Notes under the pieces: model-generated
What the model saw: the letters and a program-made list of their open reading frames with translations, nothing else
Database searches by the model: none
What the model was told of the DNA's origin: nothing
Shown here: piece after piece, positions 9,754-62,960 of the stretch
Position numbering within the stretch: the stretch's first letter is position 1
How the letters are laid out: each line of letters begins with the position of its first letter
Position numbers and translations under genes: made by a program
Source: Halosegnis marinus
Lineage (GTDB): Archaea; Halobacteriota; Halobacteria; Halobacteriales; Haloarculaceae
Length of the DNA: 64,000 nt
Assembly (NCBI RefSeq): GCF_029338355.1
Contig: NZ_CP119802.1
Span: forward strand, 1,054,001 to 1,118,000
Reading direction: 5' to 3'

Positions 9754-10668
9754 ATGAGCTGGAACACATCGGACATCCCCGACCAGAGCGGCCGGCGCGT
9801 CGTCGTCACGGGCGCGAACAGCGGTATCGGGCTGGAGGCGACCCGCGAACTCGCCCGCGCGGGCGCGTACGTCGTGATGGCCTGTCGCTCCGTCGCGCGC
9901 GGCGAGGACGCCGCGGACGACGTGCGCCGGACGGTGCCGGGCGCGGACCTCGACGTGCGCGAACTCGACCTCGCGGACCTCGACTCGGTGCGCGCGTTCG
10001 CCGAGGGGGTAGAGGGGGAGATAGACGTGCTCGTCAACAACGCCGGCGTGATGGCGATACCGCGCTCGGAGACGGCCGACGGCTTCGAGACGCAGTTCGG
10101 CGTGAACCACCTCGGCCACTTCGCGCTCACCGGCCTGCTGCTCGACCGCGTGACGGACCGGGTCGTCACCGTCTCCTCGCGCGCCCACGAGGGCGGCGAG
10201 ATGGACTTCGACGACCTCCACGGCGAGCGCGACTACGCCCGGTGGGAGGCGTACGGGCAGTCGAAGCTATCGAACCTGCTGTTCGCGTACGAACTCGACC
10301 GGCGGCTCGACGCCGCCGGCTCCGACGTGGAGAGCCTCGCCTGTCACCCGGGGTGGGCGGCGACGGAGCTCCAGTCGGGCGCGGCGACGAACGGCGCGAT
10401 GGAACTGGTGATGCGGGCCGCCAACGCCGTGGTGGCGCAGTCGGCCGCGGACGGCGCGCTCCCGACGCTGTACGCGGCCACCGCGCCCGAGGCCGAGGGC
10501 GGCGACTACATCGGCCCCGGCGGGCTGTTCGACATGCGCGGCGCGCCCGAGAAGCAGCGCTCGTCGGCGCGGTCGCGCGACCGCGACGCCGCCCGGCGGC
10601 TGTGGGAGTACTCCGAGGAGGCGACCGGCGTGGCGTTCGACCTGCCCGAGCCCGAGGCGACGGCCTGA
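9754..10668 (+). CDS. Short-chain dehydrogenase/reductase, retinol-dehydrogenase-like
   Basis: Classical SDR of 304 residues. TGANSGIGLEATRELARAGA is the NAD(P)-binding loop; CRSVARGEDAA with a basic residue after the second strand suggests NADP. VNNAGVMAIPRSETADGFE, the catalytic serine in VVTVSSRAH and YGQSKLSNLLFAYEL (catalytic Tyr-x3-Lys) complete the site. The pattern is that of the light-dependent protochlorophyllide/retinol dehydrogenase-like group often seen in haloarchaea, and the substrate cannot be inferred. The gene diverges from serA across 190 nt that hold only promoter-like A/T patches. Confidence 0.88.
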   Translation: MSWNTSDIPDQSGRRVVVTGANSGIGLEATRELARAGAYVVMACRSVARGEDAADDVRRTVPGADLDVRELDLADLDSVRAFAEGVEGEIDVLVNNAGVMAIPRSETADGFETQFGVNHLGHFALTGLLLDRVTDRVVTVSSRAHEGGEMDFDDLHGERDYARWEAYGQSKLSNLLFAYELDRRLDAAGSDVESLACHPGWAATELQSGAATNGAMELVMRAANAVVAQSAADGALPTLYAATAPEAEGGDYIGPGGLFDMRGAPEKQRSSARSRDRDAARRLWEYSEEATGVAFDLPEPEATA

Positions 10669-20070: not shown

Positions 20071-20452
20071 CGGCTGAGGGGAGTAAGCCCCCTTCTGTTC
20101 GGCCCGGCATTCGGCTGAGCGCCCGCCGCGGCGTCCGGGCTACCAATCGCGGCGGGCTTGCACCGGCGGGGATTCGCCGTTCCATCGGTCCCCACTCATC
20201 GACGCTCGGCGGGTTAGCTTCCTTCCCTCGCGGGTCGGGTCGCACGCTCCCGGGTGACCCCGGTCGCGCCGGGAGGTGACGGTGTCACCTCTCGCGCCTC
20301 ATCGCTCCGAGTGGGACGTGTCGTTGCTGTTCCATAGCCAGCGGTCTCCCGCTCCGGACTTGCGTCCGGTCGCCCGCCCGGACGGTGGGGGGACTTTCCT
20401 CGCCGTCGGGGTCCTACTCCCGACGAGGCGGTGGCCGGGCTCCCTCTGCCGA
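20071..20452 (-). ncRNA. rnpB: RNase P RNA
   Basis: Catalytic RNA that trims 5' leaders from pre-tRNAs. On the minus strand the universally conserved CR-I, GAGGAAAGTCCCCCCA (20386-20401), and CR-V, ACAGAAGGGGGCTTA (20084-20098), are both present and can pair to form P4. Helix P1 closes the molecule: GGCAGAGGGAG at the 5' end (about 20450) pairs with CTCCCCTCAGCC (20072-20083), with one mismatch and one bulge. The length of about 380 nt suits archaeal type A RNA. Ends are set from P1 and may be off by a few bases. A likely TATA box, GCTTAGGG, lies about 26 nt upstream of the 5' end. Confidence 0.93.
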
Positions 20453-35861: not shown

Positions 35862-35936
35862 TCGGTCGTTTCTGTGGGGCTCTCTCGTGCGGTGAACGTC
35901 CCCCTCGCGAGTGTCGCTCGTAGGGACCGCTTCGGG

Positions 35937-36083
35937 AACGCCCTGCTCGCGCGGTTCTAGGGAAACAGCACCGCGACGGCACCGCCCACACGCCTCCCCA
36001 GCCGATTCACTCGGTCGCGTCGCTCTCTCGTTCATCCCTCGCACGCCGGCTGACTCGCGACGGGACGCGAGTCAGCGCGCGCC
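35937..36083 (+). repeat. 147-nt intergenic repeat, copy A, ending in a 10-bp hairpin
   Basis: Matches the reverse complement of 62697-62843 in four blocks: an identical 21-nt start (35937-35957), an identical 25-nt block (35981-36005), an 11-nt block (36035-36045) and an 8-nt end (36076-36083). Between the last two lies a perfect hairpin, CTGACTCGCG (36050-36059) with CGCGAGTCAG (36066-36075), loop 6 nt. It fills the gap between converging gene ends (phosphatase and larE). Confidence 0.85.
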
Positions 36084-36093
36084 GGAGCGAGGG

Positions 36094-36975
36094 TCAGTCG
36101 GTGCTCGGGTACTCGGCGTCGAGGAGTTCCGATTCGTCCGGCTCGTCGTCGTAGGCGTCGTTCGCGGGCGACACGGAGCCGGTCGCGTAGCCGTCGAGGT
36201 CGAGCGTGACGTGGTCGAAGCCGCAGTCGAGCAGGTGGTCGCGGGCGGCGCGGACGAAGTCGGCGTCGAGCGCGCGCTCCAGTTCGTCCTCCCCGACCTC
36301 GATGCGCGCGAGGCCGTCGTGGTCGCGCACGCGGAACTGTTCGAACCCCCACGTCCGGAGGAGAGTCTCGGCGCGCTCGACGCGGGTGAGCCGTTCCTCG
36401 GTCACGTCGAGGCCGGTGGGGATGCGCGAGGAGAGACACGCCATCGAAGGCTTGTCCGCGACGGAGAGCCCGTAGTCCTCGGCAATCGCCCGCACCTCGG
36501 GCTTCGTGATGCCGTGTTCGAGCAGCGGCGAGTAGGCGTTCAGTTCCTCGACGGCGCGCAGACCCGGACGATGCCCCTCGCCCGGGTCGTCGGCGTTCGT
36601 GCCGTCGCAGACCACGTCGATGCCCATCTCGCGCGCGGTGTCGAACATCTCGCCCAGCCGCATCGAGCGGCAGTGGTAACAGCGGTCGCCGTCGTTCTCG
36701 ACGAACGCGGGGTCGTCGAGCTCCGAGAACGAGGTTATCTCGTGGCGGATACCTATCTCCTCGGCCACGCGGGTGGCGTCCTCCAGTTCGGCCGCGGGGA
36801 GCGTCTCTGACTTGGCGGTACAGGCGACGGCGTCGTCGCCGAGCGCGTCGTGCGCGAGGGCGGCGACCACGGCCGAATCGACGCCCCCGGAGAAGGCGAC
36901 GAGGACGGGACCGCGCGCCGCGAGGTCGTCGCGCGCGGCGGCGACCTTGGCGGCGACGGCGTCGTCGAGGGTCAT
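36094..36975 (-). CDS. larE: ATP-dependent sacrificial sulfur transferase, LarE family
   Basis: PP-loop (ATP pyrophosphatase) protein of 293 residues. Motif GPVLVAFSGGVDSAVVAALA binds ATP; CYHCRSMRLGEM and DGTNADDPGEGHRPGLRAV follow, and the segment SMACLSSRIPTG holds the cysteine that in LarE donates its sulfur to the pyridinium cofactor precursor. In Lactobacillus LarE makes the Ni-pincer cofactor of lactate racemase. No larB or larC is in the window, so the acceptor is not known here. The ATG at 36975 follows from the family N-terminus; upstream codons overlap the divergent gene promoter. Confidence 0.88.
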   Translation of the reverse strand: MTLDDAVAAKVAAARDDLAARGPVLVAFSGGVDSAVVAALAHDALGDDAVACTAKSETLPAAELEDATRVAEEIGIRHEITSFSELDDPAFVENDGDRCYHCRSMRLGEMFDTAREMGIDVVCDGTNADDPGEGHRPGLRAVEELNAYSPLLEHGITKPEVRAIAEDYGLSVADKPSMACLSSRIPTGLDVTEERLTRVERAETLLRTWGFEQFRVRDHDGLARIEVGEDELERALDADFVRAARDHLLDCGFDHVTLDLDGYATGSVSPANDAYDDEPDESELLDAEYPSTD

Positions 36976-61973: not shown

Positions 61974-61986
61974 TCCCCTCCCCGGT

Positions 61987-62448
61987 TCAGTTCTCCGCTC
62001 GGTTCCCCGCCCGGAACGCCTCGACGCACTCGACGTCCTCGCGGGTGAACCCGGGCACGTCCTCGCGGTCGGCGAGGGCGGATGCCGAACACCACTCGAC
62101 GGCCGCGACTTCCTCGGGCGCGCGGACCTCGCCCGCCCCGGACTCGTGTTCGCAGACGGCGAGGACGTTGAGACACGGCGTGCCGGCGTCCGTCTCGAAC
62201 GTCGACCCCGCGAGGAGCGTCACGTCGCCGACCGCGACGCCGACCTCCTCGCGGAGGTCGCGGCGCGCGGTGCGTTCGAGGACGTCCGACTCGACGGGCG
62301 GCGCCTCCAGTTTCCCGCCGGGGAGTCCGAGCAGGCCGGCCGCGTGGTCCTCGCCGTCGGCACGCCGTATCAGCAGGTACTCGCCGTCGCGGACGACGGC
62401 GCAGTCCACGTTGACGACGTAGCCGAACTCCGAGAGCGTGTTCTCCAT
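61987..62448 (-). CDS. NUDIX hydrolase
   Basis: Protein of 153 residues. The Nudix box is a slightly stretched form, LPGGKLEAPPVESDVLERTA followed by RRDLREEVGVAVGD, with the metal-binding REE pair in place and two more residues before the Glu than the classical 23-residue box. It may hydrolyse NDP-X compounds or modified nucleotides. Start ATG 62448; the longer frame upstream has no coding look and runs into a repeat. It converges on the acyl-CoA dehydrogenase gene with 13 nt between stops. Confidence 0.85.
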   Translation of the reverse strand: MENTLSEFGYVVNVDCAVVRDGEYLLIRRADGEDHAAGLLGLPGGKLEAPPVESDVLERTARRDLREEVGVAVGDVTLLAGSTFETDAGTPCLNVLAVCEHESGAGEVRAPEEVAAVEWCSASALADREDVPGFTREDVECVEAFRAGNRAEN

Positions 62449-62696
62449 ACGGCGTGGCGGCACGGCGGAGACGAAAGCGTGGCGCGGCCGTGTGAACGGC
62501 TGGCGAGGTGCTGACCGACGACGGAAGGGCGGACAGGCGGCCCGACCGCTCGGCGACGGACGGGCCGCACACCCGCGAACCCGTCTCGCGGCTTCGCCGC
62601 TCGACCGTCCGCAATACTCGCCGGTGCTCGTATCGCGCGCCGCTGCGCTCACAGCACGGAGGCGCTGGTCCCGCCTCGCTACGTGAACCTCCGTAC
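62449..62696. other. Non-coding stretch between NUDIX gene and repeat copy B
   Basis: I see no gene here. Frames on both strands lack the acidic composition of real genes nearby. It holds the NUDIX promoter side and small GC hairpins such as GCGGC-TTC-GCCGC (around 62602). It is directly continuous with copy B of the intergenic repeat. Nothing else is recognised. Confidence 0.5.
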
Positions 62697-62843
62697 GGCG
62701 CGCGCTGGCCGCGCACGCCGCGCGGCCAGCAAGCGTGCGAGGGACGACGGAGCGAGCGGAGCGACGCGAACGAGTCGGCTGGGGAGGCGTGTGGGCGGTC
62801 GCGGGGCTGTGCGGCACCCATGGAACCGCGCGAGCAGGGCGTT
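62697..62843 (-). repeat. 147-nt intergenic repeat, copy B, ending in a 10-bp hairpin
   Basis: Minus-strand copy of the element at 35937-36083. Blocks 62823-62843, 62775-62799, 62734-62744 and 62697-62704 match copy A. The hairpin is at 62704-62730 on the plus strand (GCTGGCCGCG and CGCGGCCAGC, loop 7 nt). It lies between the NUDIX gene and the DUF1684 gene. Confidence 0.85.
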
Positions 62844-62960
62844 GCCCGATGAAGGGAGACTGAAAACGGCGGCGGAACGCGCGACCGACAACGGAGACTC
62901 CCCGAGACGCCGAGCGCACAGACGGCCAACGGTTTACGCGCGGAGCGTCCAACGCCGGGT

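Follow-up and report, generated by a model that had tools for sequence, protein, structure and literature searches.

Bacterial REP/BIME elements are intergenic hairpin repeats that occur singly or as inverted pairs of fixed geometry, carry no transposase of their own and are patchily distributed; in REP systems the gene for a Y1-type RAYT transposase is flanked by the repeats. Palindrome-associated transposable elements (PATEs) of haloarchaea, whose families were defined in a single species, Haloquadratum walsbyi, are short and non-coding, have no terminal inverted repeats, carry palindromes near their ends and exist as many diverged copies (PMC3119063). They also make no target duplication, and their terminal palindromes are related to those of IS605-type transposons (PMC3119063). 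Haloarchaeal MITEs and small mobile repeats (SMRs) are likewise short, transposase-free and mobile, and possess terminal inverted repeats (PMC3119063).

The intergenic DNA of haloarchaea is poorly annotated, and a structured repeat that is conserved in its base pairing offers a marker for genome plasticity. Here we analyse a window of 64,000 nt (the whole stretch of DNA under study, to which all coordinates refer) from contig NZ_CP119802.1 of Halosegnis marinus, whose genome (G000) is 2.81 Mb in size. It holds two sequences, A and B, that fairly likely belong to a haloarchaeal family of non-autonomous mobile repeats with hairpins near the ends.

The two copies and the anatomy of the unit

Copy A occupies positions 35937 to 36083 on the plus strand, which sets the orientation used throughout, and copy B occupies positions 62697 to 62843 on the minus strand. 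Their alignment agrees with the original prediction that the two are homologous, both 147 nt long and built around shared blocks, the identical stretches being AACGCCCTGCTCGCGCGGTTC (21 nt), ACCGCCCACACGCCTCCCCAGCCGA (25 nt), TCCCTCGCACG(C) and CAGCGCGCGCC. With A as the BLAST query against its own genome, B was recovered at E = 4.9e-29 together with 14 further copies, which places the resemblance of A and B far beyond chance and brings the total in this genome to 16, too many for a coincidence of two copies. Identity between A and the other copies is 74–88%, and A and B are probably old, diverged members of the set. Both end in a hairpin, as had been proposed, but the upper stem is 11 bp long in each (GCTGACTCGCG/CGCGAGTCAGC in A, GCTGGCCGCGC/GCGCGGCCAGC in B) rather than a perfect 10 bp; the two stems differ with pairing kept, so that the change from A to B is indeed compensatory, and it is one of many such changes.

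Whereas a single hairpin was originally recognized, the unit contains up to three. It runs from a left module (CCTGCT...) through a first hairpin, P0, a linear core, CCACACGCCTCCCCAGCC, a second hairpin, P1, in which GAY ... RTC closes a variable loop, the motif CCTCGC, the two-part stem P2, and finally GCGCGCC. In A, all on the plus strand, P0 spans 35950 to 35975, its stem pairing CGCGGT (35950–35955) with ACCGCG (35970–35975); the conserved core lies at 35986 to 36003; P1 spans 36004 to 36036, with GAT (36004–36006) paired to ATC (36034–36036) in a GAY..RTC helix that covaries across copies; and the terminal hairpin P2 spans 36041 to 36082, with a lower stem GCACG/CGCGC and an upper 11-bp stem that pairs 36049–36059 with 36066–36076. 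On the minus strand in B, the conserved core is found at 62777 to 62794, P1 at 62743 to 62776, with GAC (62776–62774) paired to GTC (62745–62743), and the upper stem of P2 at 62704 to 62730, where 62730–62720 pairs with 62714–62704.

The limits of the unit are sharply defined in Natrialbaceae-type genomes, by AGCGTCCTGCT on the left and GCGCGCCACCGCA on the right, outside which conservation is at background level. From the CTGCT motif on the left to GCGCGCC the median distance is 133 nt, and the whole unit measures about 144 nt, to which the 147-nt unit of A and B corresponds closely. There are no terminal inverted repeats between the two ends. P2 lies close to the right end (about 2–8 nt) in nearly all copies, and P0 stands out in Natrialbaceae-type copies (e.g., GTGGCAAC/GTTGCCAC, with z of about −3 to −4.7), whereas many others, A among them, have a weak P0. 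The unit size is about 145–230 bp, which is too short for a transposase, and no gene is called inside it.

The architecture varies beyond this plan. Some copies (L009, L011, L059) have extra hairpins between P1 and P2, and some in other genera have a larger upstream hairpin (GAAAGCCCC ... GCCCCTTTC). At L021, L032, L034 and L060 a second, covarying-looking hairpin stands upstream of the core in the form GAAAGCCCC-stem-GCCCCTTTCAGTCC, its stem sequences differing by genus. Terminal inverted repeats together with a palindrome of the whole element, convincing in Haladaptatus and at L032, were considered as a general rule and rejected, an inverted core being present downstream in 5 of 95 copies as against 3 in the control; inverted ends are nonetheless present in some longer modules of other genera (L032).

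Covariation and the selected strand

The compensatory change between A and B had been taken to imply selection for an RNA or DNA structure, and a check of the stems for covariation had been suggested. In an alignment of 114 copies, which was fitted to the covariance model R1 (built from 21 copies) and includes the model's own sequences, 85.6% of cells pair, 16 of the 18 pairs show change in both partners, and double changes affect 221 cells compared with 66 in shuffles, none of 500 shuffles scoring as high. The third pair of P1, for example, is U-A in 67 of these copies and C-G in 31, and the covariation signal is lost when the partner is shifted by 1–3 columns. A second, independent set comprises 69 copies drawn from four genomes of the Natrialbaceae type that did not contribute to the model; here too the excess is strong, with 147 doubly changed cells against 42 and again 0/500 shuffles as high. 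Covariation that shuffling fails to match in two data sets bears out the claim that structure is under selection.

Where the orientation used here shows an A.C mismatch, the complementary strand has a G.U wobble. In well-paired columns, A.C outnumbers G.T by 51 to 22 (p = 0.0009) in one set of copies and by 25 to 7 (p = 0.002) in the other, p-values that are optimistic owing to shared ancestry, and one position in the lower stem toggles between G-C and A.C in about half of the copies of both sets. Because wobble-type mismatches favour the minus strand, the probable target of selection is the complement of the strand read here (the minus strand of A), either as RNA or as single-stranded DNA. 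A preference derived from folding energy (88 to 7) was set aside in favour of these mismatch-type counts, since shuffled sequences lean likewise (34 to 8); base composition accounts for part of this energy bias between strands.

Copy number, empty sites and gene context

A first search found the repeat in 35 of 59 relatives. The search of haloarchaeal genomes with a covariance model, as originally suggested, then gave matches in 84 of 145 class genomes, frequently at least 26 in a single genome; the same approach allows the repeat to be annotated by others. Exact matches to the 14-base core CCTCCCCANCCGAY are present in 120 of 194 genomes, representing 46 of 65 genera; they number well over 1,300 altogether and reach 88 in one genome, compared with a total of 18 for the reversed pattern. 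Hosts include Halosegnis, Haladaptatus, Halobaculum, Halorussus and Natrinema. Within genera, copy number ranges from 0 (G153) to 44 (G143) in g27, from 0 (G050) to 85 (G179) in g37, and from 0 to 24 in g4.

Three sites that are filled in Halosegnis marinus have empty counterparts in related species. At A, the sister species G005 and G001 keep both convergent genes with their stop codons adjacent, the gap between matches being 33 bp there and 287 bp here; the DNA that they lack, positions 35862 to 36093 between the two convergent stop codons, contains copy A. At B, about 940 bp (61976 to 62914) comprising copy B, a downstream module and a NUDIX gene stand where G005 and G001 have 36–37 bp, and at the site of copy L002 there are 18–22 bp in G002, G003 and G004 compared with about 340 bp here. 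The DNA absent from the sisters exceeds 147 nt, at about 230 bp for A and about 940 bp for B. We infer insertion at all three sites, although absence from the sisters could instead reflect deletion; with one genome per species compared, the flanks of the filled and empty sites are diverged and define no target-site duplication or target motif. The NUDIX gene beside B is missing along with B in G005 and G001, which joint arrival or joint loss may explain. Another dispersed module, GGAGGTTCAAGT ... CGGCCCGCCCGTCGCCG ... GGGCCGCCTGTTCGCC, follows P2 at about 62520–62690 of the window, at L002 and L013 and in orthologous gaps of G004 and G005; in G004 it fills the B gap without the hairpin unit.

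Elsewhere, one genome (G114) has two copies that are 94% identical over 291 bp and have unrelated flanks. Other sites are common to different species, namely L237/L254, L243/L251 and three Halosegnis gaps, in which the copies L005, L014 and L013 of our genome face L078 and L093 of G002 and L091 of G004, two of them in opposite orientation; at some shared sites a single copy in one species is a pair in another. Shared sites indicate slow turnover and some vertical inheritance.

It is plausible to ask at this point whether the copies are instead a multi-copy family of small RNAs, that is, a structured RNA of about 150 nt made from the minus strand with P2 at its 5′ end and P0 near its 3′ end. 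Covariation, the minus-strand wobble bias, the conservation of a single-stranded core and the sharp unit ends are all in keeping with such a family. Copy numbers of 0 to 88 per genome, wildly uneven within genera, are not, and neither are sister species without copies at the same sites, nor is the sequence of the 40 nt adjoining the presumed 5′ end, which shows no conserved AT-rich peak of the kind expected of a promoter; the folding-energy bias, being partly compositional, weakens the case further, and we regard a small RNA family as unlikely. Less likely again is a class-wide mobile element whose conserved, covarying core would be a working RNA, beyond any service as an end signal, and which would spread by means of that RNA, one end being fixed and the other a tandem tail of variable length.

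The genes around the copies provide a further line of evidence. According to a codon-based gene caller trained on the genome itself, about 93% of the window is coding, and both A and B lie between genes, which upholds their description as occupants of gene-free gaps; all 16 copies in the genome do so, one slightly overlapping a called gene, and copies inside genes number 0/80 in a set of mixed origin and 0/81 in Natrialbaceae-type genomes. Copy A has a histidine phosphatase superfamily gene (Pfam PF00300; 35232 to 35861, plus strand) on one side and a gene with PP-loop/asparagine-synthase-like matches (36094 to 36975, minus strand) on the other, both converging on it. Those beside B, the NUDIX gene (PF00293; 61987 to 62448, minus strand) and a DUF1684 gene (PF07920; 62961 to 63527, plus strand), start away from it. 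Neighbours of copies are unrelated housekeeping genes: 107 sampled neighbour proteins matched 154 Pfam families, with at most three members matching any one family, and copies on annotated plasmids lie in unannotated gaps between metabolic genes.

Convergent gaps are over-used, with 23 of 57 single copies as against 33 of 155 gaps, and divergent gaps are under-used, yet many copies sit in them, B included; selection against insertions close to promoters would produce this bias. Codirectional gaps are occupied in the sense and antisense orientations 12 and 11 times in one set, and 28 and 21 times in another. Where two copies share a gap in a sample from G143 and G176, in one genus, they are head-to-head, minus then plus, in all 12 cases with no other orientation, although the opposite geometry also occurs among paired copies in other lineages.

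These counts bear directly on the proposal that the repeat is a transcript-end element, either a terminator or a 3′-processing structure. The convergent enrichment and the position of A between convergent genes are what such an element would lead one to expect, but it should also prefer the sense orientation in codirectional gaps, which it does not, and it should not lie so often between divergent genes, as B does; in addition, most genes are without the element and no T-tract follows P2 in A, making a main role at transcript ends very unlikely. Of the three options first offered, then, the mobile non-autonomous element has gained from the empty sites, the patchy copy number and the unrelated neighbours, whereas the transcript-end structure has lost ground as a main role. 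Overall, a mobile repeat fits best because empty sites, patchiness, unrelated neighbours and the lack of sense preference come together. In such an element, a protein supplied in trans would perhaps recognize the complement of the strand read here in single-stranded form, the hairpins may act as end signals by analogy with PATEs and REP/BIME elements, and host selection would eliminate copies inserted into genes, along with most of those that land between divergent promoters.

Candidate mobilisers and resemblance to known systems

Against the mobile reading, the internal core is more conserved than end signals alone require, and, beyond the sites shared between species, the expected transposases are either absent or unlinked. 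The Y1 transposase family (PF01797, IS200/IS605/RAYT) is absent from G000, G004, G143, G077, G114, G110 and G158, all of which carry copies; it is thus missing in 7 of 12 copy-bearing genomes, and in the remaining ones it is unlinked to the copies. R1 had no significant match within 4 kb of the ten Y1 loci examined, no TnpB-like gene was found near copies in 1.5 Mb of DNA, and no autonomous partner with the same left end was seen in the genus. The question raised is which protein acts on the folded single strand in genomes without the expected transposases.

One pair of loci might point to a SINE-like element copied from RNA, in which the presumed RNA 5′ end is fixed and the other end is a variable tandem tail. 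In two genomes of genus g40, the copies L030 and L173 are 98% identical and stop at the same right-end base, beyond which the sequences are unrelated, while on the left they carry a 50-bp tandem array that differs in unit number, 2.6 as against 3.6 (positions 1290–1417 of locus L030 and 592–769 of locus L173, reverse complement); the diverged second left-end motif found 39–42 bp beyond the left end in 6 of the 16 copies of our genome and the selection on the minus strand would also suit this idea. The gene on the left flank of L030 and L173 is, however, homologous, so the two genomes share this locus, which is broken at the element, and the pair is neither a clean new insertion nor proof of transposition. 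Natrialbaceae-type units have no obvious tail, and slippage or rolling-circle copying also yields tandem ends, all of which leaves an RNA-copied element improbable. Descent as a relic of IS605/IS1341 transposons, for instance from the RNA scaffold of TnpB (omega RNA) or from fused ends, would account for hairpins that lie close to the ends while terminal inverted repeats are lacking, a combination known from PATEs (PMC3119063), but is equally improbable given the searches around Y1 loci and for TnpB described above.

A mobile repeat of this kind has anatomy similar to that of haloarchaeal PATEs and, when paired, of bacterial BIMEs. Like PATEs, as compared by description, it is short and non-coding, lacks terminal inverted repeats, has many diverged copies in archaeal halophiles and carries palindromes near both ends (P2 nearly always, P0 clearly in Natrialbaceae-type copies and weakly elsewhere); unlike them, it showed no link to IS605-type genes in the searches above and keeps one core and fold conserved across 46 genera. 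With MITEs and SMRs it shares the form of a short mobile repeat without a transposase, but not terminal inverted repeats. The fixed-geometry inverted pairs of G143 and G176 recall REP/BIME elements, although other lineages show the opposite geometry, the unit of about 145 nt has up to three hairpins and a linear core, and no RAYT-type Y1 transposase gene flanks it. The repeat may be said to work like PATEs and REP elements but is not filed as a member of either because the IS605-type link and the RAYT linkage fail.

The family seems to be undescribed: the open-access papers searched, which are weak evidence of novelty, give no account of it and no core strings in a haloarchaeal context; phage records gave no match either. 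Covarying helices are a feature that the repeat has in common with the structured RNA families of Rfam, but no family of Rfam 15 matched A, B or the related loci tested at gathering or permissive thresholds. Elsewhere in the window, the archaeal RNase P RNA lies at 20072–20450 on the minus strand (RF00373, 142.9 bits) and a tRNA-Arg (tcg) at 10255–10345, also on the minus strand.
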